From the NCBI GenBank assembly GCA_946539175.1, contig CAMNHH010000003.1, positions 1 to 33,311 on the forward strand: DNA of 33,311 bases, read 5' to 3'. The stretch comes from an uncultured Clostridia bacterium (GTDB lineage Bacteria; Bacillota; Clostridia; Oscillospirales; Oscillospiraceae). Below, one piece after another: positions 1-31,104 of the stretch (the stretch's first letter is position 1; each line of letters opens with the position of its first letter). The notes under the pieces were generated by a model. It made no database searches. It was given only the letters and a program-made list of their open reading frames with translations, and had not been told where the DNA came from. The position numbers were made by a program, and so were the translations under genes.

Positions 1-447
1 AGCAGCAAGGCTGAAAGCAGCAAGAGCGAGAGCAGCAAGAGCAGCAGCTCCAGCGCCTCCACCGGCAGCAGCCTGGGCGAGCGTGTGGCGGCCTACGCCA
101 TGCAGTTCAAGGGCTACCGCTACGTCTACGGCGGCTCCTCTCCCTCCGGCTTCGACTGCTCCGGCATGGTCTACTACATCTACAAGCAGTTTGGCTACAA
201 TGTGGGCCGCATCTGCACCGCCCAGCTCTCCGCTGGCAAGCAGGTCTCCCGCGCCAACCTCCAGCCCGGCGACATCGTGGTCTTTGAGCGGACCTACACC
301 ACCTCCAGCCGTGCCACCCATTCCGGCATCTACATCGGCAACGGCCAGTTCATCCACGCCGCCAACACCAAGCTGGGCGTCATCGTCAGCAGCATCGACC
401 AGGAATACTACGCCAGCCGTCTGATCTGCGGCGTCCACGTGGGCTGA
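1..447 (+). CDS. NlpC/P60 (C40) peptidoglycan hydrolase, 5'-truncated by the window edge
   Basis: The reading frame is open from base 1, so the N-terminus (probably signal peptide and cell-wall-binding part) lies outside the window. The visible part starts with a Ser/Lys/Glu-rich low-complexity linker, followed by a C40 domain of about 120 residues. The catalytic Cys is in FDCSG, the His in HSGIYIG, and a third polar His in FIHAAN, the usual Cys-His-His arrangement of gamma-D-Glu-diamino-acid endopeptidases. It probably cleaves stem peptides of peptidoglycan outside the cell. The ORF track's start at 85 is a GTG inside the domain boundary and is not a real start. A strong terminator follows 13 bases after the stop, so the gene ends a transcription unit. 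Its role (growth, separation or spore cortex) cannot be told from this fragment. Confidence 0.93.
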   Translation, partial: SSKAESSKSESSKSSSSSASTGSSLGERVAAYAMQFKGYRYVYGGSSPSGFDCSGMVYYIYKQFGYNVGRICTAQLSAGKQVSRANLQPGDIVVFERTYTTSSRATHSGIYIGNGQFIHAANTKLGVIVSSIDQEYYASRLICGVHVG

Positions 448-460
448 TCCACTTACGTCC

Positions 461-495
461 AATACCCGGTATCGAAGGATACCGGGTATTTTTTT
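461..495 (+). terminator. Rho-independent terminator after the NlpC/P60 gene
   Basis: A perfect 13-bp stem (AATACCCGGTATC and its complement) closes a GAAG tetraloop and runs into a T-tract (TATTTTTTTTG). It isolates the hydrolase gene from spoVAD. Confidence 0.92.
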
Positions 496-524
496 GCGCA
501 AAGGGGGAAAGATAGGAAAAACAC

Positions 525-640
525 GACGGATCGGGATTTGTCTAATTGTAGTGCCGGCAATCTGCCGGCCCGATCCGCTCCGGCATCTCGGTTTTGCCGG
601 CAGATTGCCGGCACTACAGACTTACAAATCCCAATCTGTC
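525..640. repeat. 116-bp near-perfect palindrome (MITE-like or REP-like hairpin)
   Basis: Two 45-base arms (525-569 and 596-640) are inverted copies around a 26-base centre. The inner 23 bases of each arm (core TGTAGTGCCGGCAATCTGCC) are perfectly complementary. Next come 5 unpaired bases on each side, then 17 outer bases with 15 matches. There is no T-tract, so it is not a simple terminator. The element ends 6 bases before the spoVAD ribosome binding site, and the overlong spoVAD ORF of the track (start 538) runs into it. It carries no coding capacity. It could be a miniature inverted-repeat element, a repetitive extragenic palindrome or a leader hairpin; only a genome-wide copy count can decide. 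Confidence 0.85.
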
Positions 641-654
641 AACATGGAGGCAAT

Positions 655-1665
655 ATGGATACTCTGCGTCGCGGAAAGCAAAGCGTTCTGTTCCCCAACC
701 GGCCCGCAGTGACGGCCTGGGCTTCGGCGGTGGGGCCGAAGGAGGGGCAGGGGCCCCTGGGGCCGGAATTCGACCTGGTGGCGGAGGACGGCCGGCTGGG
801 GGAAAAGACCTGGGAGCAGGCGGAGACCCGGCTCCAGCAAAAGGCCATGGAGCTGCTGATGAAAAAGGCGGGCCTGGAGGGCGGCGGGCCGGAGCTGGTC
901 TTTTCGGGAGACCTTCTGAATCAGTGCGTGGGCTCCAGCTTCGCCCTGCGGGGCACGGGCTTCCCCGCTCTGGGGCTCTACGGAGCCTGCTCCACCATGG
1001 CGGAGGGACTGCTGCTGGCAGGGGCGGCGGTGAACGCCGGATACGTCTCCAACGCGGCGGCCCTCTCCTCCTCCCACTTTGCCGCGGCGGAGCGGCAGTA
1101 CCGCTTCCCCCTGGCCTACGGAGGACAGCGGACCCCCACCGCCCAGTGGACCGTCACCGGCTCCGGCGCGGTACTGGTCTCCGCCCGGGGAGAGGGACCG
1201 GTGCTGAGCGCCGCCACCGTGGGCACTGTGGAGGACAAGGGGATTACAGACGCCAACAACATGGGGGCCGCCATGGCCTGGGCCGCCTGCCGCTCCATCC
1301 TGGTCCATCTGGAGGACCTGGGTCGGGGGCCGGAGGACTACGACCGGATTGTCACGGGAGATCTGGGCAGCCTGGGCAGCGCCATGTTGCGGGAGCTGTT
1401 GGCGAAGGACGGGCTCCGGCTGGGGGACCGGCTGACGGACTGCGGTATGCTGATCTTCGACCCCAAGACCCAGGACGTCCACTGCGGCGGCTCCGGGGCG
1501 GGCTGCAGCGCGGCGGTTCTGGCGGCGGAGCTGCTGCCCGGCCTGGTCTCGGGCCGCTGGAAGCGGCTGCTGTTCTGCGGCACCGGGGCCCTGCTCTCCC
1601 CCACCACCGTGCAGCAGAAGCAGAGCATTCCGGCGGTGTGCCACTGCGTGGCCATCGAGCATTGA
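655..1665 (+). CDS. spoVAD: Stage V sporulation protein AD (SpoVAD)
   Basis: The 336-aa product matches the usual SpoVAD length and has its thiolase-like fold signatures: GTGFPALGLYGACSTMAEG near residue 100, SSSHFAAAERQYRFPLAYG, and VTGDLGSLG. In Bacillus, SpoVAD binds dipicolinic acid and with the other SpoVA proteins moves Ca-DPA into the forespore and out during germination. The start chosen is the ATG at 655, four bases after GGAGG; the longer track ORF begins inside the palindrome and would add unrelated residues. spoVAE follows 28 bases downstream. In most Clostridia the order is spoVAC-spoVAD-spoVAE; here the palindrome and an NlpC/P60 gene stand where spoVAC would be. I could not find a convincing sigma-G promoter in the 160 bases upstream. 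Confidence 0.95.
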   Translation: MDTLRRGKQSVLFPNRPAVTAWASAVGPKEGQGPLGPEFDLVAEDGRLGEKTWEQAETRLQQKAMELLMKKAGLEGGGPELVFSGDLLNQCVGSSFALRGTGFPALGLYGACSTMAEGLLLAGAAVNAGYVSNAAALSSSHFAAAERQYRFPLAYGGQRTPTAQWTVTGSGAVLVSARGEGPVLSAATVGTVEDKGITDANNMGAAMAWAACRSILVHLEDLGRGPEDYDRIVTGDLGSLGSAMLRELLAKDGLRLGDRLTDCGMLIFDPKTQDVHCGGSGAGCSAAVLAAELLPGLVSGRWKRLLFCGTGALLSPTTVQQKQSIPAVCHCVAIEH

Positions 1666-1693: not shown

Positions 1694-2047
1694 ATGGAAT
1701 ATTTGAAAGCGTTTTTGGTGGGCGGGCTGATCTGCTGCGTCTGCCAGATTCTGATCGACAAGACTGCCCTGACCCCGGCCCGCATCCTGACCGGCTGCGT
1801 GGTGAGCGGGGTGCTGCTGGGGGCCCTGGGACTCTATCCGGCCCTGGCGGACTGGGCCGGAGCCGGGGCCTCCGTGCCCCTGACGGGCTTCGGAAACGTT
1901 CTGGCCCAGGGGACCCGGGAGGCAGTGGACCGGCAGGGCCTCCTGGGCGCCCTCACCGGTCCTCTGACCGCCGCCTCCGGCGGCATCGCGGCGGCTGTGC
2001 TCTTCGGCGCCCTGGCCGCCCTCCTCTTCCCCTCCAGGGAGAAATAG
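1694..2047 (+). CDS. spoVAE: Stage V sporulation protein AE (SpoVAEb type), membrane protein
   Basis: A 117-aa hydrophobic protein with about four membrane segments. It has the typical N-terminus (FLVGGLICCVCQILID), followed by LTPARIL, and ends in a long Ala/Leu-rich helix with a short basic tail. Length and sequence fit SpoVAEb, a membrane component of the SpoVA Ca-dipicolinate channel. The ATG at 1694 is preceded by GGCGGAGGAAGT. It lies 28 bases after spoVAD and surely shares its transcript. A terminator overlaps the stop region. The channel would also need SpoVAC, which is not in this window. Confidence 0.93.
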   Translation: MEYLKAFLVGGLICCVCQILIDKTALTPARILTGCVVSGVLLGALGLYPALADWAGAGASVPLTGFGNVLAQGTREAVDRQGLLGALTGPLTAASGGIAAAVLFGALAALLFPSREK

Positions 2048-5660: not shown

Positions 5661-8066
5661 ATGAAAAAAAAGATTCAATCCGCCCAGGCGCCGCTCCGCA
5701 GCCTGGCCCTTCCCGCCGGATTGCCGGAGGGCTTCGTTCCCACCCCGCCCCAGGGGCTCAGCGCCGCCGAGGCCGCCGCCAGAGCGGAGGCCGGACAGGC
5801 CAACCGACAGAGCGCCGAGCCGGGCAAATCCGTGGCCCAGATTGTAGGAGAAAATCTCTTTACCCTCTTCAATCTGCTGAACTTCGCCCTGGCCCTCTGC
5901 CTGGCCCTGGTGGGTTCCTGGCGGAACATGCTGTTTTTGGGAGTCGTCTTTTCCAACACCCTCATCGGCACGGTACAGTCCCTGCGGGCCCGCGCCATGC
6001 TGAATAAGCTGCGGCTGCTGCAGGAGAAGCCCTGCCACCCCATCCGGGACGGGCAGGAGCAGGACTGCCCCCCCGCGGAGCTGGTGCTGGGCGACCTGGC
6101 GGTATTCCGGGCAGGCGATCAGCTGCCGGCGGACGCCATCGTCCGGGAAGGCAGCTGCGCCGCCGACGAATCCCTGCTGACCGGCGAGAGCGATCCGATC
6201 CCCCGGAGCGCGGGAGATTGGCTCATGTCCGGCTCCTTCCTGACGGAGGGCAAGGTCACGGCCCAGCTTGCCGCCGTAGGCGACGACAGCTACGCCGCCC
6301 GGCTCATGGGGGACGCCCGGCAGATCCGCTCTCCAAAGTCGGAGCTGATGACGGATCTGAATCAGCTGGTGCGCTGGATCAGCCGCCTGCTGGTGCCCAT
6401 TGGGCTGCTGCTCTTCCTGCGGGAGGTTCTGACCCGCTCCGTGCCGGTAAAGGAGGCTGTGCCCGGTGTGGTGGCCGCCATGATCGGCATGATCCCGGAG
6501 GGTCTGATCCTGCTGACCTCCGTGGCCCTGATGGCCGGTGTGGTGAAGCTGGGCCGCCGGAAGACCCTGGTGCAGGAGCTCTTCGGCATTGAGACCCTGG
6601 CCCGCACCGACGTGCTGTGCCTGGACAAGACCGGCACTCTGACCACCGGTGAGATGAGCCTGGAGAAGGCCATCCCGATGGAAGTCTCCGAGGAAGCGCT
6701 GCAAAGAGCCGTGGGCCGCTTTTTGGGGGCCTTTGAGGCCGGCTCCGGCACCCTGCGGGCCCTGGCCCAGGCCTTCCCCGCCGCCTCGGAGCAGCCGGTA
6801 TCCACCCTTCCCTTCTCCTCCGCCCGCAAAAAATCCGCCGCCGCCTTCTCCGACGGGACCGTGCTGATCCTGGGGGCGCCCTCCTTTGTACTGAAGGCCG
6901 TGCCGCCCCAGGCGGAGACCTGGGCCGCGGAGGGCTTCCGGGTGCTGGCCCTGGCCCAGGCCAGGGGTGCCCTGGAGGGAGACAAGCTGCCGCCGGTGGA
7001 GAAGCTTCTGGGCCTGTTTCTGCTGCGGGATACCCTGCGGCCCGCCGCCTCCGACACCCTCCGCTGGTTCCGGGAGCAGGGCGTGCAGGTGAAGATCATG
7101 TCCGGCGACGATCCCCGCACCGTGGCCGCGGTGGCCCGGCGGCTGGGTCTGCAGGACGCGGACAAGGCCGTGGACTGCGGCGCGCTGACGGACCAGGAGC
7201 TGGCCGAGGCCAGGGACCAGGTGATCTTCGGGCGGCTGACTCCAGACCGGAAGCGGCTGCTGGTGGGGGCCTTCAAGGCCGACGGCCACACCGTGGCCAT
7301 GACCGGCGACGGTGTCAACGACATTCCGGCGCTCAAGGCCTCCGACTGCTCCATCGCCATGGCGGGCGGCGCGGAGGCCACGGAGCACGCGGCCCAGCTG
7401 GTGCTGATGGACGGAGACTTCAACTCCCTGCCGGCGGTGGTGGCGGAGGGGCGACGGGTGATCGGCAATATCACCAGAACAGCCAGCCTGTTTTTGGTAA
7501 AAACGCTGTATTCCGCCGCTTTGGCGATTTTGACCCTGCTGCTGCCCCTGCGCTATCCCTTCCAGCCCATCCAGCTGACGCTGATTTCCGCCATTTCCAT
7601 CGGCATTCCCTCCTTCTTCCTGGCCCTGGAGCCCTCCAGTGAACGGGCCAGGGGCCGCTTCCTGCGGCGGGTGCTGCTGCGGGCGGCCCCCGGTGCGGCC
7701 GCTGTCACCGTCTGTGCCCTGGCCTCCCTGCTGGTGAGCCGCGGCGGCAGCTCCTTTGAGGCCGCCTCCACCATGGCCGCCATCGCCGCCGGGATCATCG
7801 GCCTGGCCAATCTGGTGCTCACCTGCCGTCCTCTGACCCGTCTGCGGGCTCTGCTCTGCGGCGTCATGGCGGCGGCCTTCGCCGGAGCGGTGCTGCTGGC
7901 GCCTAAGGTCTTCTTCCTGCAGACCGCCTCCCTCACGGGCCGGGAATGGGGGGAGCTGGCCGTTATCCTGGTCTGCGGCGTCGCCGTTCTGCTGCTGGGC
8001 TCGGCTCTGGCCCAGCGCAGGCAAAACGCCGACGAAAGCCGAGCGGAAGCGCACAAGGCAAATTGA
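5661..8066 (+). CDS. P-type cation-transporting ATPase (CtpE-like P2 group)
   Basis: 801 aa with all P-type ATPase elements in order: actuator loop TGES near residue 175, membrane helix 4 motif MIPEGLILL, phosphorylated Asp in DKTGTLT (about residue 322), a short nucleotide-binding domain, TGDGVNDIPALK near 548, then a C-terminal block of about six membrane helices. The PEGL helix, compact N-domain and lack of heavy-metal CPC or N-terminal CxxC motifs place it with P2-type Ca/Mg pumps, closest by memory to the CtpE group, for which Ca2+ uptake has been reported. Substrate is inferred only. GAGGT precedes the ATG at 5661; a GTG at 5646 is the alternative. The stop overlaps the -35 of the next promoter. 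Confidence 0.92.
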   Translation: MKKKIQSAQAPLRSLALPAGLPEGFVPTPPQGLSAAEAAARAEAGQANRQSAEPGKSVAQIVGENLFTLFNLLNFALALCLALVGSWRNMLFLGVVFSNTLIGTVQSLRARAMLNKLRLLQEKPCHPIRDGQEQDCPPAELVLGDLAVFRAGDQLPADAIVREGSCAADESLLTGESDPIPRSAGDWLMSGSFLTEGKVTAQLAAVGDDSYAARLMGDARQIRSPKSELMTDLNQLVRWISRLLVPIGLLLFLREVLTRSVPVKEAVPGVVAAMIGMIPEGLILLTSVALMAGVVKLGRRKTLVQELFGIETLARTDVLCLDKTGTLTTGEMSLEKAIPMEVSEEALQRAVGRFLGAFEAGSGTLRALAQAFPAASEQPVSTLPFSSARKKSAAAFSDGTVLILGAPSFVLKAVPPQAETWAAEGFRVLALAQARGALEGDKLPPVEKLLGLFLLRDTLRPAASDTLRWFREQGVQVKIMSGDDPRTVAAVARRLGLQDADKAVDCGALTDQELAEARDQVIFGRLTPDRKRLLVGAFKADGHTVAMTGDGVNDIPALKASDCSIAMAGGAEATEHAAQLVLMDGDFNSLPAVVAEGRRVIGNITRTASLFLVKTLYSAALAILTLLLPLRYPFQPIQLTLISAISIGIPSFFLALEPSSERARGRFLRRVLLRAAPGAAAVTVCALASLLVSRGGSSFEAASTMAAIAAGIIGLANLVLTCRPLTRLRALLCGVMAAAFAGAVLLAPKVFFLQTASLTGREWGELAVILVCGVAVLLLGSALAQRRQNADESRAEAHKAN

Positions 8067-8091
8067 CAAATCCCCCGATCTGTGATATGAT
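8063..8091 (+). promoter_or_regulatory. Near-consensus sigma-A promoter of the ABC-RsbU-RsbW unit
   Basis: TTGACA (8063-8068), exactly 17 bases, TATGAT (8086-8091). Its -35 begins within the stop codon region of the ATPase gene. It is one of the strongest promoter matches in the window and lies inside a long inverted repeat, so it is presumably held in check by a DNA-binding protein. Confidence 0.85.
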
Positions 8092-8117
8092 TTGCTATAT
8101 CACAGATTGGGGGATTT
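8068..8117. promoter_or_regulatory. Long inverted repeat overlapping the promoter, probable operator
   Basis: Arms of 21 bases (8068-8088 and 8097-8117) match at 20 positions around an 8-base centre; the core is ATCTGTGATAT-N8-ATATCACAGAT. The left arm covers the spacer and most of the -10; the right arm covers the expected transcription start (about 8098). Because transcription would start inside the repeat, the RNA could not form the full hairpin, which favours a DNA-level operator for a dimeric regulator. No regulator of a recognisable DNA-binding family is encoded in the window. Confidence 0.75.
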
Positions 8118-8122
8118 TGACG

Positions 8123-17116: not shown

Positions 17117-20100
17117 TTACATGTCGTCACGGTCAAAGAAGCCCAGGGAATCCAGGGATTCGATGATCCGAAGCAGATAGTCGCTGTCGGTGATGGGCCA
17201 TTTGTAGCCCAGGCGGTACAGGGCCTTGACGGAGAAGCGGTTGTCGCTGCGGATCTCCCGGCGCTGGCGGCCGTCGCTGCTGGAATAGGTCAGCAGGCCC
17301 GAGACCAGCATGCCGCGGCTTTCGTCCGCAATGGCCTCGTTGAGTCTGGCCCGGAAGGCCTCGTCCCGCAGGATCTCGATCCGGAAGCCATAGCGGTTCA
17401 TGGTCTCGATCACGTCGCCCATCTGGACCTCGTGGGCGTTGGCACAGTGGAAGAGGGTGAACTTCCGGTTGGTCAGAGACAGGCGCATGACGCACTCGGC
17501 CACCTCGTCGATGGGAGAGAAGTCCACGGTCTCGTCGCAGGCGGAGACGGGGAAGCAGCCCAGCACCCGGTAGGCCTTCAGACTGCGGATGAAGCTGTTG
17601 GTGACAGAGTTGATCTGGAACTCGCCGTCGGACTGGCGGCCCATCAGATTGCCCACCCGGATGATCTTGGCGTCCAGGCCGCCGTCGATGGCCTCCAGCA
17701 CGGCCCGCTCCGCCATGAACTTGGAGTGGACGTACTTGTTGGAGATGTCCTGGCCGAAGTCCAGGGCGTTCTCCGCCAGGCGGAAATCAGCGCCGATGGC
17801 GTTGTCCACGTCCTCGCCCGCCACGGAGAGGGTGGAGATCTGGATGAAGCGGGCGTTTCTGGCTTTGGACAGGGCAAGCAGGTTCTTCACGCCCTCCACG
17901 TTGATCCGCTCGATCACGTCGTCCTTGGCGAAGTGCTTGACGCAGGCGGCGCAGTTGATGACCGTGTCGATCCGCTCGCCGGCCAGCAGCTCCTCCAGGC
18001 CCGGCGAGGTGATATCCGCGTCGAAGACCTTCACCAGCCGGGAGATTTCGCTCTCCAGGGGGGAGTCGAAGTAGTAGGCCATCATGGCCCGCAGGCGGGT
18101 GTTCTGGTCCAGCTCTCCCGCCCGGCAGAGGGCCGCCACGGGGATCTCCCGCTCCAGCAGCTTTTTCAGCACGTGGGAGCCCAGGAAGCCGGTGGCGCCC
18201 GCCAGCAGCACCCGGCCCAGGGGCCGCTGCTCAGCGATCTCGTCCACGTATTCCGGCACGTTGTTCCGAAGGGCGTTCTCATGGACCTCCCAGCTCTCCT
18301 GCTTTACGGCGGCAGGGGCCGCAGACTCCGACACGGCCCCCAGGTGCTTTGCCATCTGCTCGGCGGTGGGGAACTCGAACACGTCCTTGTAGGCGATGGA
18401 AAGGTTCATGGACAGGGCCAGCATGGCCACCTTGGAGGCGGACAGCGAGGTGCCGCCGTTTTCAAAGAAGTCCTCGTCCACGCCCATGTCCCTGTGGCCC
18501 AGGGACTTGGCGAAGATGGACACGATCTTCCGCTCCAGCTCGTTCCGGGGCCGCTTCACCTCCCGCTGGACGCTCTCGGTGACGGGCTCCGGCAGGGCCT
18601 TCTTGTCGATCTTGCCGTTCTTGTTCATGGGGATGGAATCCAGCTGCATGTAGACGGAGGGCACCATGTATTTGGCCAGACTCTTGCTGATATGGGCCTT
18701 CAGCGCCGCCGCGTCCACCTTCTCGCTGGCGGTGAAGTAGGCGCACAGGAACTGGCCCTCCCGCTCGGACTCCTTCACCAGCACCAGGCTGCGGAGCAGA
18801 GCGGGGTAGGTATTCATCACGTTCTCGATCTCGTCCAGCTCGATCCGCAGGCCCCGGAGCTTCACCTGATTGTCCATGCGGCCCATGAAGAGGATGCGTC
18901 CGTCCTCGCTCCAGCGGGACAGATCGCCGCTGCGGTAGGCGGGCAGGCCCTCAAAGGAGATATACTTCTCCCTGTTCATCCCGTCCAGCTTCACGTAGCC
19001 CCGACCCACGTTGTCGCCGCAGAGGATCAGCTCGCCGGGCACGTAGGGCGGCAGCTCGTTGTCAAATTTGTCGAAGATGGCCAGCTTGGTGTTGCCCACA
19101 GGGCCGCCGATGGTGATGTTGTCGTCCTTCACGTTGTCCACCGTGATGAAGATGGTGGTCTCGGTGGGGCCGTAGCCGTTGAGGATCCGGGCGTTGATGC
19201 CCAGAGCCCGCATTCTGCGGTAGAGGGGGGCGGGCAGCGCCTCGCCGCCCAGCAGCAGGGACTTCATGCTCTTCAGCGCCTTCACCGCGTCGGGGAAATC
19301 CAGCAGATTGTTGGCGTAGGAGGGGGAGAAGAAGCTGGCCTCCACGTGGTTCTCCAGGATCAGTCTGGCCAGCAGATTGGGGTTGTGGATTTCCTCCTCC
19401 GTGGCGATCACCACGGTCTTGCCCCCGTAGAGGCCCGTGGTATGCTCCATGACGGACACGTCGAAGGTCAGCGCCGCGAAGCTCATGGTGACGCTGACGT
19501 CCTTCAGATGCTCGGTGGCGTAGCGGTTATAGGGGTTCTCGGTGACGAAGTTCACCAGGGAGTGGTGCTCGATCATAACGCCCTTGGGCTTGCCGGTGGA
19601 GCCGGAGGTATAGAGGCAGTAGGCCAGGTTATGGGGCGTAAGCGCGGGCTCCGGGTTGCCGATCTCATTGCTTTGGATCAGCTCCTCGATCACCATCACC
19701 CGCAGGCCGCAGGTCCTGAACAGCTCCGCCCGCTCCCGGGCCAGCTGGGCGGTGGTCACCAGCAGCCTGGCCTCAGAGTTCTCGATGATGTACTGCACCC
19801 GGTCGTCGGGGTAGTCCGGGGCCAGCATCAAAAAGCCGCCGCCGGATTTCAGAATGCCCTCCCGCCCGGCGTAGGCCCAGACCGTTCTGGGCACCATCAG
19901 GCCCACCATATCGTCGGGCCGGACCCCCTCCCGCATCAGGGCGTGGGCGATGCGATTGGCGTGTTGGTTCAGCTCCCGATACGTCAGCCGCTCGCCCTGG
20001 GCGATGACGGCGATCCGGTCCGGGTGGCGCTCCACCTCCGCCTCAAAGATCCTGTTCACCGTGGTCTCCGGCACGGGGCCCTCGGTGGCGTTGAAGCCCT

Positions 20101-23100
20101 TGATCCGCTCCTTGACCGGGGCGGGCAGAATGCTGACCTGCTTCACCAGCTCCCTGACCATCAGCTCCCGGGCCGCCTGCTCAAAGTAGGCGGCAAAGGC
20201 CCGGATGAAGGCCTCGGAGTACAGATCGCTGCGGTACTCGAAGCGGAAGTCCGCCCCGCTCCCCTTCCGGAAGATGAAGAAGGAGATGGGAGCCATGGAG
20301 TCGCTTACGTCCAGGGGGAAGCATTCTGCGGGCTCGCCGCCGATCTGATCGAAGTTGAAGTATTCGCCCTGGTAGACGAACATATAATCCATGGGAATCT
20401 CGCAGGCTCTGGCGATCTCCCCGAAGGAGTAAATATCGTGGCTCATGCTGTCGATGAGCTGCTCGCCCAGCCGGGCGATGAGGGTCTTCACCGGCAGGTC
20501 CCCCTGAAGCTGCTGGTAGACCGGCAGCGTCTTGACCAGCATGGTGACGGCCCGGGACAGGCGAGGATCGTTTCTGCCGCTGTAGACGGTGGTGTAAAGG
20601 GCCTCGTTCTTGAAGCTGTACTTGCTCACCAGCAGGACGAAGGCCGCGTTGCAGAAGGCGTTGACCGACACCCGGTTCTTCCTGCAGAAGGCCTCGATCC
20701 GGTCAAAGTCCAGACCGGAGGGCAGGGTCAGAAGACCTGTGGCGGGCTTGGCCCCGTGGACGTCCTTGGGCGGCAGGAAGTCGTGCTCCGCCCCCTCCAG
20801 CAGGCCATGGTAATAGCGCTTCGCCTGCTCGTATTTCTCGCTCTGCCGGGCCTTCTTCTCATCCAGGGCGGCCTCGAAGCCCGTGTACCGTTCCGGCTCC
20901 GGGGCGGCGCCGGCGTAGGCGGCGTTGACGTCCTCGATGAGCACCGCCAGGCTGGTGCCGTCACAGATGATGTGGTGGATATCCAGGAACAGATAGTTCC
21001 CCTGCCCGGTCTTGTAGATCTGCATCCGGTACAGTCTGCCGCCGAAGAGCTCGAAGGGAGTGACCAGCCGCTCCGGCAGCCGCTCCGTCTCGAAGCGTTC
21101 CACCACCGGCAGCTTGGGATCGTCCCGGCAGACCCGGATCTCCCCGTCCTCCTGGACAAAGAGCTTGATCTTCAGGTAGGGATGGGCGTTGACGGTCGCC
21201 TCCAGAGCCGCCTGCAGTCGGTCCAGATCCACCCGCTCCGAGAGCTTGAACAGGTAGGGGATATTGTAAACAGTGGACTCCGGCTTGGACAGACTCTCCA
21301 CAAGGATGCCGTTCTGGGTCTCCGTCAGCGGATAGTCGGAGAGGATCTCATAGCGCTCCGCCTGCTCGCTGCCCTGGATGAATGCCTCCAGGGCCTCCAC
21401 GGTGCTGTTGGCCTTCAGATCCGCGATGGTGAACACCACGTCGAATTCCTTGGACAGCAGCACGTTGAGCTTGATGGCACCGATGGAGGAAAGGCCCGCG
21501 GCAAAGATATCGGTGGTGACGCCGAAGCGCTCGGAGCCGATGGCGTCGGCCACGCAGGCGAAGATCCGGCGCTGGATCTCGTTCTTCGGGCGCACCAGCT
21601 CCTCCGCCTTGCGCTGGGGCACAGGCAGGGCCCGCTTGTTGACCTTCTGGTTCTGATTCAGGGGGATACGCTCGATCTGCATGGTCACAGCGGGCACCAT
21701 GTAGGGGGGCTTGTTCGCCAGAATGAAGGCGTTCAGTGCGTCGACGTCCACGGTCCGGTCGGAGACCACGTAGGCCGCGATGAACTTGCCGCCGCCCTGC
21801 TGGTCGAAGGCCTGGACGGTGGCGTCCCGGATGCCCTCGAATTTGCGGATGATGCCCTCCACCTCGCTGAGCTCTATGCGGAAGCCCCGGATCTTCACCT
21901 GGCCGTCGCTGCGGCCGATGAAGTCCACCACGCCGCCGGGCAGCATCCGCACCAGATCCCCGGTGCGGTATACGTGCCGGTACGCGGGATCGTCCTCGAA
22001 GGGATTCTCAAGAAAGGCCTTGGCGGTCTGCTCCGGGCGATTGAGATAGCCCCGGCCCACCTGCGGACCGGCGCAGAGCAGCTCGCCGGGCACGCCCACC
22101 GGGACGCGCCGCAGCTGCTTGTCCACCACGTACTGCCGCAGATTGTTCAGGGCCGGACCCAGAGGGACCCGCTCATAGAGCCGGTCCACCGGGAAGTGGT
22201 TGACAAAAACGGTGCATTCCGTGGGGCCGTAGACGTTGTAGAGCTTGTAGGTCCGGGGCGGCTCCACAGGCACCAGCCGCTCCCCGCCCACGGAGAGCTG
22301 CTTGGGGTACTCCGCGTCGGGGAACAGCTCGGCGTACTGCCGTCCCACCTGGGTGGTCATGAAGCTGTGGGTGATGCGGTTTTCCTGGAAATATGCCCGG
22401 ATGGCCAGCATATCCAGGCGGATCTCCTCCTGGATGATATGCAGCTCCGAGCCTGCCGTCAGAGTGGGCCAGGTGTCCATCATATTGGCGTCGAAGCCGA
22501 AGCTGGCATAAGCCGCCGCCCGGCTGTCGGAATCCAGTCGGTAGAAATCCCGGAACCAGCCGCAGAAGGCCGCCAGGTTCCCCCGCTCCAGAATGACGCC
22601 CTTGGGCACGCCGGTGGAGCCGGAGGTATAGAGCATGATAAAGCGCTGATCCGGGCTGAAGTCGGCGGGCAGCGCATCCGCCGGGGGCAGGTCGGGAATT
22701 TCGTCGGTATAGAGCACGGGGCCGGCGTAGCCGGGGACCCGGTCCATGAGGCCCCGATCCGCGATCAGGTACTTTGCCTCCGCGTCCCGGATCATGAACT
22801 CCAGCCGCTCGGGGGGATAGCTGGGGTCCAGGGGCTGATAGGCCGCGCCGGACTTCAGCACGCCCAGCGGGGTCACAGCCATGCTGGCGCAGCGGGGGAT
22901 CAGAATGGAGACCACATCCTCCGGTCCGATGCCCTTGTCCCGCAGGAAGGCCGCCAGGGTGTCGCTGAGGCGGTCCAGCTCCCGGTAGCTGAGCCGGGTC
23001 GCGCCGCAGACCACAGCGGTATGCTCGGGCTGCCGGGAGGCCTGCCTCCGGAACAGCTCCACCACGTCGCTCCGGTCCAGTTCCTTTTCGTTCCGGTTGG

Positions 23101-24346
23101 CGGCGTCCAGCTCCGCCAGCTGCTCCCGGGTCAGAAGATCGATCTGACCCAGCCGCTCCACGGCGGGCAGCTCCAGCAGAATCTTTTCATAGCTCTCCTG
23201 CATGGAGCGAACCACCGCGTCGTTGTACCGGTCCATGGCGTAGTCCGCCCGGAAGCTGACCCGGTCCCCGTCCCGCCAGACGGTAAAGGCGAAGTCCTCC
23301 GGGGCGTCCAGCTCCGTGCAGGCTTCCGGAACCTGCTTCAGTCCGCAGAAGCTGAGCTCCGACAGCAGGTCGCCCTGGTAGGCGAAGATCACCTTGGGCC
23401 GCAGCTCCGTCTCGGCGCAGAAATCCGCGAAGGAATAGAGGCTGTTGGCCCGGCTGGCCCCGATCTGCCCGTCCAGCTCCCGCAGGAAGTCCCCGACGGG
23501 CGTTTCATCCCGGGGCTCGGCCAGCACCGGATAGGTTTTGACAAACATGCCCACGCTGTTGGCCAGGCGCTGATCTCTGCCGTGGAACACGGTGGCATAG
23601 ACCGGGGCTTCCCGGTCCGTGTGCCGGGCCAGAAGGACGGCGAAGGCCGCGTTGAAGACCGTGCTGAGCCGGACCCCGTTGCTGCGGGCATAGGCCCGCA
23701 GGGTCTCCGCACTGAGGCGCTCCGAGATCCGGGTCAGGGACTTGCGCTTGTGGGGTCTGGGATTGGCGTCCTGGTACAGCTCCGCAGCGGATTCCACCCC
23801 GTCGAAGCGCTTCAGGTAGTATTCCCGGGCCGCTTCATACGCCGGGGAGGCCAGGCGCTGCCGCTCCTCCAGGGCATAGTCGTTGGCGCTGAAGCGCTCC
23901 TCCTCCACGGGCAGGCCGTTGTAGGCGGCGTCGATCTGCCGCAGCAGCAGACGCAGGGAGCAGCCGTCGAAGACGATATGGTGGAAGTCCAGGAACAACC
24001 GCTTCTCTGCCGGACTCAGCAGAATGGCAAAGCGGTACAGGGGACCATGCTCCAGGTCGAAGGGCTTGACAAGCTCGCTGATTCGGAAGCTCCCGGCCTC
24101 CAGAATCGGGATCTCCGGCTCGCCGCCGCAGGCGTATTTGCAGAGCTCGCCCTTCTCATCCGTACCAAAGCGGGTATTCAGGTACGGGTGGGCTGCCAGG
24201 ACGCCGCGGATGGCGGCCTGCAGCCGCTTCGGGTCCAGGCTGTCCGGCAGCCGGAGGGTGAAGGGCTGGTTGAAGGCAGTGCCGGAGGCTGCCGTCCGGG
24301 CCGCGTAGATGCCGTATTCTGATTTGGAAAGCGGATAGCAATTCAT
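17117..24346 (-). CDS. Two-module nonribosomal peptide synthetase with terminal reductase, C-A-T-C-A-T-R
   Basis: 2409 aa. Domain order: condensation C1 (1-430, HHIVFDG at 122-128), adenylation A1 (440-930, YTSGSTGVPKG near 574, YGPTE near 704), carrier T1 (about 935-1000, GLSSIGA), condensation C2 (1005-1430, HHIICDG near 1125), adenylation A2 (1440-1940, YTSGSTGKPKG near 1578), carrier T2 (about 1945-2005, NGGTSLSA) and a thioester reductase (2040-2409: GATGFLG near 2050, ISTLSVAG, YVHSK near 2204). The reductase should release the dipeptidyl thioester as an aldehyde using NAD(P)H. A condensation domain before the first adenylation domain suggests an N-acyl starter. The architecture fits the gut-clostridial NRPS family known to make dipeptide aldehydes and pyrazinones. 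The ATG at 24346 has GGGGAGGT upstream; the PPTase precedes it by 23 bases and STAS/PP2C genes follow. Confidence 0.95.
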   Translation of the reverse strand: MNCYPLSKSEYGIYAARTAASGTAFNQPFTLRLPDSLDPKRLQAAIRGVLAAHPYLNTRFGTDEKGELCKYACGGEPEIPILEAGSFRISELVKPFDLEHGPLYRFAILLSPAEKRLFLDFHHIVFDGCSLRLLLRQIDAAYNGLPVEEERFSANDYALEERQRLASPAYEAAREYYLKRFDGVESAAELYQDANPRPHKRKSLTRISERLSAETLRAYARSNGVRLSTVFNAAFAVLLARHTDREAPVYATVFHGRDQRLANSVGMFVKTYPVLAEPRDETPVGDFLRELDGQIGASRANSLYSFADFCAETELRPKVIFAYQGDLLSELSFCGLKQVPEACTELDAPEDFAFTVWRDGDRVSFRADYAMDRYNDAVVRSMQESYEKILLELPAVERLGQIDLLTREQLAELDAANRNEKELDRSDVVELFRRQASRQPEHTAVVCGATRLSYRELDRLSDTLAAFLRDKGIGPEDVVSILIPRCASMAVTPLGVLKSGAAYQPLDPSYPPERLEFMIRDAEAKYLIADRGLMDRVPGYAGPVLYTDEIPDLPPADALPADFSPDQRFIMLYTSGSTGVPKGVILERGNLAAFCGWFRDFYRLDSDSRAAAYASFGFDANMMDTWPTLTAGSELHIIQEEIRLDMLAIRAYFQENRITHSFMTTQVGRQYAELFPDAEYPKQLSVGGERLVPVEPPRTYKLYNVYGPTECTVFVNHFPVDRLYERVPLGPALNNLRQYVVDKQLRRVPVGVPGELLCAGPQVGRGYLNRPEQTAKAFLENPFEDDPAYRHVYRTGDLVRMLPGGVVDFIGRSDGQVKIRGFRIELSEVEGIIRKFEGIRDATVQAFDQQGGGKFIAAYVVSDRTVDVDALNAFILANKPPYMVPAVTMQIERIPLNQNQKVNKRALPVPQRKAEELVRPKNEIQRRIFACVADAIGSERFGVTTDIFAAGLSSIGAIKLNVLLSKEFDVVFTIADLKANSTVEALEAFIQGSEQAERYEILSDYPLTETQNGILVESLSKPESTVYNIPYLFKLSERVDLDRLQAALEATVNAHPYLKIKLFVQEDGEIRVCRDDPKLPVVERFETERLPERLVTPFELFGGRLYRMQIYKTGQGNYLFLDIHHIICDGTSLAVLIEDVNAAYAGAAPEPERYTGFEAALDEKKARQSEKYEQAKRYYHGLLEGAEHDFLPPKDVHGAKPATGLLTLPSGLDFDRIEAFCRKNRVSVNAFCNAAFVLLVSKYSFKNEALYTTVYSGRNDPRLSRAVTMLVKTLPVYQQLQGDLPVKTLIARLGEQLIDSMSHDIYSFGEIARACEIPMDYMFVYQGEYFNFDQIGGEPAECFPLDVSDSMAPISFFIFRKGSGADFRFEYRSDLYSEAFIRAFAAYFEQAARELMVRELVKQVSILPAPVKERIKGFNATEGPVPETTVNRIFEAEVERHPDRIAVIAQGERLTYRELNQHANRIAHALMREGVRPDDMVGLMVPRTVWAYAGREGILKSGGGFLMLAPDYPDDRVQYIIENSEARLLVTTAQLARERAELFRTCGLRVMVIEELIQSNEIGNPEPALTPHNLAYCLYTSGSTGKPKGVMIEHHSLVNFVTENPYNRYATEHLKDVSVTMSFAALTFDVSVMEHTTGLYGGKTVVIATEEEIHNPNLLARLILENHVEASFFSPSYANNLLDFPDAVKALKSMKSLLLGGEALPAPLYRRMRALGINARILNGYGPTETTIFITVDNVKDDNITIGGPVGNTKLAIFDKFDNELPPYVPGELILCGDNVGRGYVKLDGMNREKYISFEGLPAYRSGDLSRWSEDGRILFMGRMDNQVKLRGLRIELDEIENVMNTYPALLRSLVLVKESEREGQFLCAYFTASEKVDAAALKAHISKSLAKYMVPSVYMQLDSIPMNKNGKIDKKALPEPVTESVQREVKRPRNELERKIVSIFAKSLGHRDMGVDEDFFENGGTSLSASKVAMLALSMNLSIAYKDVFEFPTAEQMAKHLGAVSESAAPAAVKQESWEVHENALRNNVPEYVDEIAEQRPLGRVLLAGATGFLGSHVLKKLLEREIPVAALCRAGELDQNTRLRAMMAYYFDSPLESEISRLVKVFDADITSPGLEELLAGERIDTVINCAACVKHFAKDDVIERINVEGVKNLLALSKARNARFIQISTLSVAGEDVDNAIGADFRLAENALDFGQDISNKYVHSKFMAERAVLEAIDGGLDAKIIRVGNLMGRQSDGEFQINSVTNSFIRSLKAYRVLGCFPVSACDETVDFSPIDEVAECVMRLSLTNRKFTLFHCANAHEVQMGDVIETMNRYGFRIEILRDEAFRARLNEAIADESRGMLVSGLLTYSSSDGRQRREIRSDNRFSVKALYRLGYKWPITDSDYLLRIIESLDSLGFFDRDDM

Positions 24347-24369
24347 ATGATACCTCCCCAAAAAATACT

Positions 24370-24951
24370 CTATGGCAGGACCACGGGCGACAGCTCGCCC
24401 GGATCTTCCTCGCCGCAAAGGCTCAGGGCGAAGCCCGCCCGGACCGTGCTTTTCACGAACAGGCCCTCCGGCCAGGGCGGGCCCAGGGCCGGGATCTGCT
24501 TCGGGTCCTCATAGCCCCCCAGGGCCTTGTAGAGGCTCTCCTTGCGGGTCCAGAGAATATGAAAGCGCTCCAGAGGCGCGGGCCGGATCCAGACCAGCTC
24601 CTCCGGCCTCAGGGCAGCCTCCGCCGCCGGAAGATTGTCCGGCTCCAGCCGCTCCAGGTCCACCCCCAGGCGTCCCCGGCCCAGGGCCAGTACGCAGCGG
24701 CCTCCGCTGTGGGAAAGGCTGAAGGAGGGGCCGCCCGGCAGAAAGGGCCTTCCCGCCGGGTCCAGGCACAGCTGCGCCTCGTCCTCCAGACCCAGGACCC
24801 GGTGAAGCAGGGCCCCGGCGGCCAGAATGGAGCGCCGATCCTCCAGCCGCAGGCAGCGCGCCGCCCGGGCCCAGCGTCTGGGAAAGCGGGCTTGGAGAAA
24901 GCGGCACTCCGCCGCGTCCAGATCCGCCGCGTCCAGTCTGTAAAGCTCCAC
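24370..24951 (-). CDS. Sfp-type 4'-phosphopantetheinyl transferase
   Basis: 193 aa. It has the Sfp/AcpT signature motifs: GRPFLPG, FSLSHSGG, the magnesium-binding LGVDLERL, and WTRKESLYKALGG. It transfers the phosphopantetheine arm from CoA to the Ser of carrier domains, here surely the two T domains of the NRPS encoded 23 bases downstream. The start codon is GTG at 24951 with AGGGA seven bases before it. It is the first gene of the operon, preceded by an extended -10 promoter. It is short compared with Sfp (about 224 aa) but keeps all the core motifs. Confidence 0.93.
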   Translation of the reverse strand: MELYRLDAADLDAAECRFLQARFPRRWARAARCLRLEDRRSILAAGALLHRVLGLEDEAQLCLDPAGRPFLPGGPSFSLSHSGGRCVLALGRGRLGVDLERLEPDNLPAAEAALRPEELVWIRPAPLERFHILWTRKESLYKALGGYEDPKQIPALGPPWPEGLFVKSTVRAGFALSLCGEEDPGELSPVVLP

Positions 24952-31041: not shown

Positions 31042-31104
31042 GCCGGCAGCTTCCCCAAACATTTCCAAAAAAATGAAAAATTTTTTCGGAAGGAAGCTGC
31101 CGGC
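31042..31104. repeat. Inverted repeat with A/T-rich loop
   Basis: GCCGGCAGCTTCC (31042-31054) and its perfect complement (31092-31104) enclose 37 bases with long A and T runs. It lies between the frameshifted gene and the next promoter and could end transcription of the former. The GCCGGCA core is shared with the palindrome at 525-640, hinting at a related repeat family. Confidence 0.6.

Follow-up and report, generated by a model that had tools for sequence, protein, structure and literature searches.

The palindrome that precedes spoVAD in this uncultured member of the Oscillospiraceae contains a REPIN, an inverted pair of GTAG-tagged class A REPs. The REPIN is enclosed by a second, outer inverted repeat, the frame, which is present in tens of copies in each genome of a sub-clade within a single rumen genus of the Oscillospiraceae. 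Orthologous frame sites in related species hold different repeat classes. We consider it likely that the palindrome is a composite mobile element, formed by a class A REPIN in a clade-specific frame, which inserted long ago and whose cargo has since been exchanged through nesting and slippage. More tentatively, the frame might be a vehicle or landing platform common to unrelated RAYT/REPIN families and other palindromic repeats, with sites that outlast speciation and cargo that is replaced through nesting and deletion between arms.

Structure of the palindrome and the spoVAD leader

Coordinates refer to the window, the whole stretch of 33,311 nt analyzed here, which is part of a 2.1-Mb draft genome (G000, 75% complete). 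The strongest inverted repeat of the entire window lies at 525-640 and has arms of 45 nt (525-569 and 596-640), complementary at 38 of 45 positions (84%) and separated by 26 nt. The inner stem, TGTAGTGCCGGCAATCTGCCGGC, pairs over 23 bp with no mismatch. Inverted-repeat searches and folding thus recovered the arms, matches and perfect stem described in the original prediction. The predicted RNA fold reaches -83.9 kcal/mol compared to -44.0 kcal/mol for shuffled sequences (z = -10.2; 0 of 200 shuffles), and the DNA fold gives z = -11.8. The palindrome has two layers (Table 1). The core consists of two inverted REP units, which are exact complements across the spacer and form a hairpin. Both units read TGTAG followed by TGCCGGCAATCTGCCGGC, which places the GTAG tag at the foot of a short GC-rich palindrome. 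Inverted REP pairs of this kind were named REPINs by Bertels and Rainey (PMC3116915). The class A doublet is multi-copy in the extragenic DNA of the same genome, recurring on two further contigs (C19 and C145), with single or half units elsewhere. The outer layer is a separate inverted repeat of the form CAAATCGGGATTTG...CAAATCC(C/G)(G/A)ATTTG.

Table 1. Features between the window start and the end of spoVAE.
Feature	Position	Strand	Sequence or motif	Evidence
NlpC/P60 hydrolase gene, 3' part	1-447	+		PF00877, 93 bits
Intrinsic terminator of the upstream NlpC/P60 gene, ordinary	462-495	+	stem ATACCCGGTAT/ATACCGGGTAT, then T-run	also in most relatives
Candidate -10 region of a putative spoVAD promoter	511-516	+	GATAGG, TA-containing	by eye; recurs there in relatives
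Left frame arm and linker	525-546	+	core motif GATCGGGATTTGT at 529-541; linker CTAAT	motif counts in G000; logo of 110 frames
REP unit, class A	547-569	+	TGTAGTGCCGGCAATCTGCCGGC; GTAG tag and hairpin	sequence; recurs in G000; flanks RAYT genes in G019, G004 and G007
Spacer of the REP doublet (hairpin loop region)	570-595	+		variable among 18 aligned class A/A2 copies
Second REP unit, class A, inverted	596-618	-		sequence and inverted-repeat search
Right frame arm and linker	619-640	-	core motif at 624-636 on the minus strand; linker GACTT	
spoVAD ribosome binding site, outside the hairpin	646-650	+	GGAGG	sequence, fold
spoVAD	655-1665	+		PF07451, 435 bits; 22 of the 23 genomes of the genus have an orthologue
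spoVAE	1694-2047	+		TIGR02839, 135 bits (cut-off 131)

Other readings of the palindrome were rejected. The GC-rich stem is not followed by a T-tract and no T-run occurs after position 640, which excludes an intrinsic terminator, as the original prediction had held. A known structured RNA was discarded likewise, as Rfam returned only a chance match to mir-564 (E = 0.94). The proposed echo of the GCCGGCA core in a second hairpin at 31042-31104 is at chance level, given 18 occurrences of the 7-mer in the window against 14.3 expected. This second hairpin (GCCGGCAGCTTCC...GGAAGCTGCCGGC) has an AT-rich loop and no GTAG, and the 7-mer is its only match to the element. Elsewhere in the window, a strong hairpin lies between two genes at 8062-8120 (GACAAATCCCCCGATCTGTGATAT...ATATCACAGATTGGGGGATTTTG), and its ends look like oppositely oriented frame arms. 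Open frames that are very long and overlap one another occupy both strands at 17117-24418 (2433 aa on the minus and 2296 aa on the plus strand).

The element starts about 8 nt downstream of the candidate -10 motif and stops 5 nt short of the ribosome binding site of spoVAD. Judged from these positions, the very stable hairpin probably forms most of the spoVAD 5' leader in the mRNA and leaves the ribosome binding site free. A leader structure acting on spoVAD expression is plausible from the same placement. The expectation that spoVAC should lie at 525-640 did not hold. An NlpC/P60 gene and its terminator precede spoVAD in most relatives examined, hence no spoVAC is missing.

Frame copies, cognate RAYT genes and mobility

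The frame was located by motif in draft MAGs. With at most one mismatch, the motif AATCSGGATTTGT occurs 48 times in G000, 77 times in G019, 64 times in G016, 91 times in G003 and 37 times in G004; these numbers are underestimates because assemblies in the genus break at frames, with many G003 contigs stopping 40-90 bp from a frame arm. The reversed control motif has 0 occurrences. The frame is almost entirely lacking in about 105 other genera sampled. Among 121 genomes across the family, a stricter frame pattern turned up in G000 and in one instance in each of two further genera. The composite matches named records that are MAGs from sheep rumen and other Oscillospiraceae or Clostridia MAGs. 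The paired arms are inverted copies of each other in 110 frames, and the arm logo built from these shows that any sequence consensus ends within about 4 bp outside the arms. The arm itself is a near-palindrome (ACAAATCSSGATTTGT). Lone arms occur in G000, G016 and G019, and a single arm on G019:C31 near 52934 stands where G016:C9 holds a full element.

The frames enclose payloads of discrete length (approximately 108, 112, 121, 122/148, 123, 134 and 68 bp), which fall into at least seven classes as defined by motif in the present analysis. Classes A, A2, B, C and E are REP doublets, each with its own RAYT family, and classes D and F contain no GTAG doublet. In large contigs taken whole, REPs adjoin a frame arm in 27 of 47 cases in G016 and 13 of 19 in G019.

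Profile searches identified RAYT-like genes in 19 of the 23 genomes of the genus. The same class A REP flanks RAYT genes in sister species (G019:C98, G004:C19 and G007:C100), where intact class A RAYT genes are present. A truncated RAYT lies between two class A REPs on G003:C11. The profile search found no class A RAYT in G000, which is 75% complete, or in G016. The class A proteins score 59-69 bits against the NCBIfam family NF047646 (REP-associated tyrosine transposase), which is below its cut-off of 80. They are likely divergent RAYTs, given that NF047646 is their best and almost only matching family. The G019:C98 protein carries NHLHLIL and FYDHIIR, corresponding to the HUH motif and the catalytic tyrosine region of Y1 transposases. 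PF01797 is matched by related RAYTs at 22-24 bits. The remaining RAYTs of the genus are accompanied by different REP classes, and a given gene usually has only one. None of the RAYT loci examined is framed, and the RAYT linkage concerns the core only.

Some repeats near RAYT-like genes are of other kinds. Long terminal repeats at RAYT genes lacking GTAG REPs (G016:C31, G010:C33 and G005:C50) were considered as frames and rejected, as they are other palindromes. At L302, L312 and L279, RAYT-like genes without GTAG REPs are flanked by other palindromic repeats, comparable to transposases flanked by terminal inverted repeats (PMC3733652). Class A REPs also form tandem arrays in one orientation, at L063 1300-1530 (G007:C1), with a period of about 34 bp in G007, and at L051 1390-1600 (G019:C121). 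Each array lies directly ahead of a gene or of a framed REPIN.

G016 has two copies that match the window copy at 99-100% identity over 100-104 bp, a span that takes in most of the arms and linkers, and these copies stand in other contexts. The SpoVAD proteins of G016 and G000 are only 79% identical. A filled site on G019:C26 is empty in G016, where both the REPIN and the arms are absent. These comparisons indicate that arms, linkers and REPIN travel as one unit and together are a composite miniature mobile element. The near-identical copies at non-orthologous sites hint indirectly at RAYT-dependent mobility of the doublet, and a RAYT may move the composite as a whole. The original prediction of a REP-like sequence or non-autonomous mobile element agrees with the REPIN, with the cognate RAYT in sister species and with these copies. 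Target-site duplications, the search for which it had proposed, were not found, and flank matches are no better than under shuffled pairing. The frame arms themselves were rejected as a duplication because the left arm is an inverted copy of the right (centre GG versus CC or CG) rather than a direct one.

The frame could instead be the terminal repeat of a MITE moved by some other transposase, with the REPINs and other repeats as mere passengers. We regard this as possible, if doubtful. A MITE would account for near-identical copies in different species that share arms and linkers, for frames enclosing the GTAG-less classes D and F, and for the lack of framed RAYT loci. However, target-site duplications are absent, no transposase gene lies between frame arms in the loci read, and the capture of five REPIN families would need explanation.

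Cargo at orthologous frame sites

A frame stands upstream of spoVAD in five species, enclosing class A in G000 and G019, C in G003, B in G016 and D in G004. The majority of the other relatives in the genus lack an element upstream of spoVAD. The original prediction had named a single copy conserved at this position in all relatives as evidence against a mobile repeat. The multi-copy nature of the element favors mobility; the site speaks less clearly, being common to five relatives, mostly with different cargo, and empty in others. Among the loci collected, we recognized 18 groups of orthologous frame sites; both flanks could be aligned for 14 of them. Each of these 14 intergenic sites is represented by at least two species, and the payload class differs at 11 of them, or at 10 of 13 without the weak arm call at G000:C13. 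Payload classes agree in 5 of 28 classed pairs, and random draw would give 3.25 (P = 0.21). Knowing the position is thus no better than chance for predicting the cargo. Distances from frame to flank mostly agree between species to within about 5 bp on both sides. About 6 of 10 clearly mappable frame sites are shared when mapped onto large contigs of other species, with no frame required there. Inherited insertions with changed cargo are the simplest reading of the shared sites. The pattern suggests that cargo is swapped over time while the outer wrapper stays at the same genome spots.

Nested and half-resolved forms point to a possible route. On G004:C26 and G016:C46, a framed B or C element begins directly after the left half of an A element. 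A right half of A comes after a B element on G000:C185 and G004:C106. One frame on G019:C13 holds two payloads. Tandem pairs of elements with one common arm occur on G000:C175 and G019:C41, and such sharing is possible because each arm is nearly self-palindromic. G019:C61, which is orthologous to G016:C46, contains C without the A remnant. The left linkers of the two C copies differ, hence the pair is consistent with the resolution of a nested form and is not proof of it. Taken together, these forms suggest nesting followed by deletion between arms. Composites would land in or beside older composites, either in the loop or at an arm. The repeated, nearly self-palindromic arms might then act as direct repeats, and the older cargo could be lost by slippage between them, leaving an old site with new cargo. 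The insertion at spoVAD is probably old, since the frame occupies almost the same position in five related species with differing cargo.

The main alternative for the step of cargo change is copying between inherited frames, with cargo overwritten through gene conversion or template switching and without any nesting. The arms would serve as short homology. Breaks and template switching are known effects of long palindromes, a few classes dominate in each genome, and different cargo in inherited frames would follow directly. Frames with two payloads and half elements, however, are expected from nesting and less so from clean copying, and arms of about 18 bp are short. We consider copying rather unlikely.

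The frames might also not be inherited at all. Composites with different cargo could have entered the same preferred positions independently in each species. At several shared sites the arms diverge more than the flanks, which indicates that arms may not be inherited there, and the chance-level agreement of cargo classes at shared sites would fit as well. We nevertheless give re-insertion at hot spots a low probability, as no consensus extends outside the arms beyond a few base pairs, frame-to-flank distances mostly agree on both sides, and about 6 of 10 mappable sites are shared. A fixed cis-regulatory hairpin, retained in the leader for its effect on spoVAD expression, would suit the very stable fold immediately upstream of the ribosome binding site and the presence of an element there in five species, but is very improbable given that most other relatives lack it, its interior varies between species, the same element occupies many unrelated sites, and frame edges lie beside gene starts (70) and gene ends (87) in similar numbers, which argues against a dedicated leader role.

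Relation to known REP systems

The REPINs and RAYTs of Pseudomonas fluorescens SBW25 (PMC3116915) share many features with the system described here, including inverted REP doublets with a short spacer that form hairpins, several REP classes per genome, RAYTs each flanked by their own class, and REPINs inserting into or next to REPINs. In contrast to SBW25, the doublet here is placed in an extra frame common to several REP classes, the class differs between species at orthologous frame sites, and the host is a rumen Oscillospiraceae. GTAG REP dimers within longer palindromes were noted briefly in Anabaena variabilis (GTAG-15) and Thermomicrobium roseum (GTAG-23), along with Halothiobacillus (CGTC-1) (PMC3733652). 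These palindromes likewise have a fixed consensus and enclose REP dimers, and for two of the three, no palindrome lacking a REP was found. Each palindrome there encloses one REP family, whereas the present frame encloses at least five RAYT-linked families and two GTAG-less classes. The frame sequence is also unrelated, and cargo varies here at orthologous sites. REP classes of pseudomonads and stenotrophomonads switch in evolution while the genomic position stays (PMC3686654). In that case the RAYT locus stays and the flanking REP class changes, whereas here non-coding sites stay and the whole cargo changes, including its length and linkers.

The open-access literature yielded no report of one frame for several REPIN families, none of orthologous frame sites with differing cargo, and nothing useful on RAYTs in Firmicutes, nested MITE/REP insertions or palindromic repeats in Faecalibacterium. 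New are the use of one frame by several REPIN families, the change of cargo at fixed sites and the occurrence in Clostridia. In the usual view, every RAYT family has a repeat population of its own, to which its REPINs belong. If the frame is indeed common property, REPIN families would compete for, or cooperate through, the same positions. Cargo changing at fixed sites would also provide a means to count cargo replacements. The genus documents a rich RAYT/REP system in rumen Clostridia, outside the scope of the REP papers cited here, and offers an example of a REPIN hairpin directly before a sporulation gene.
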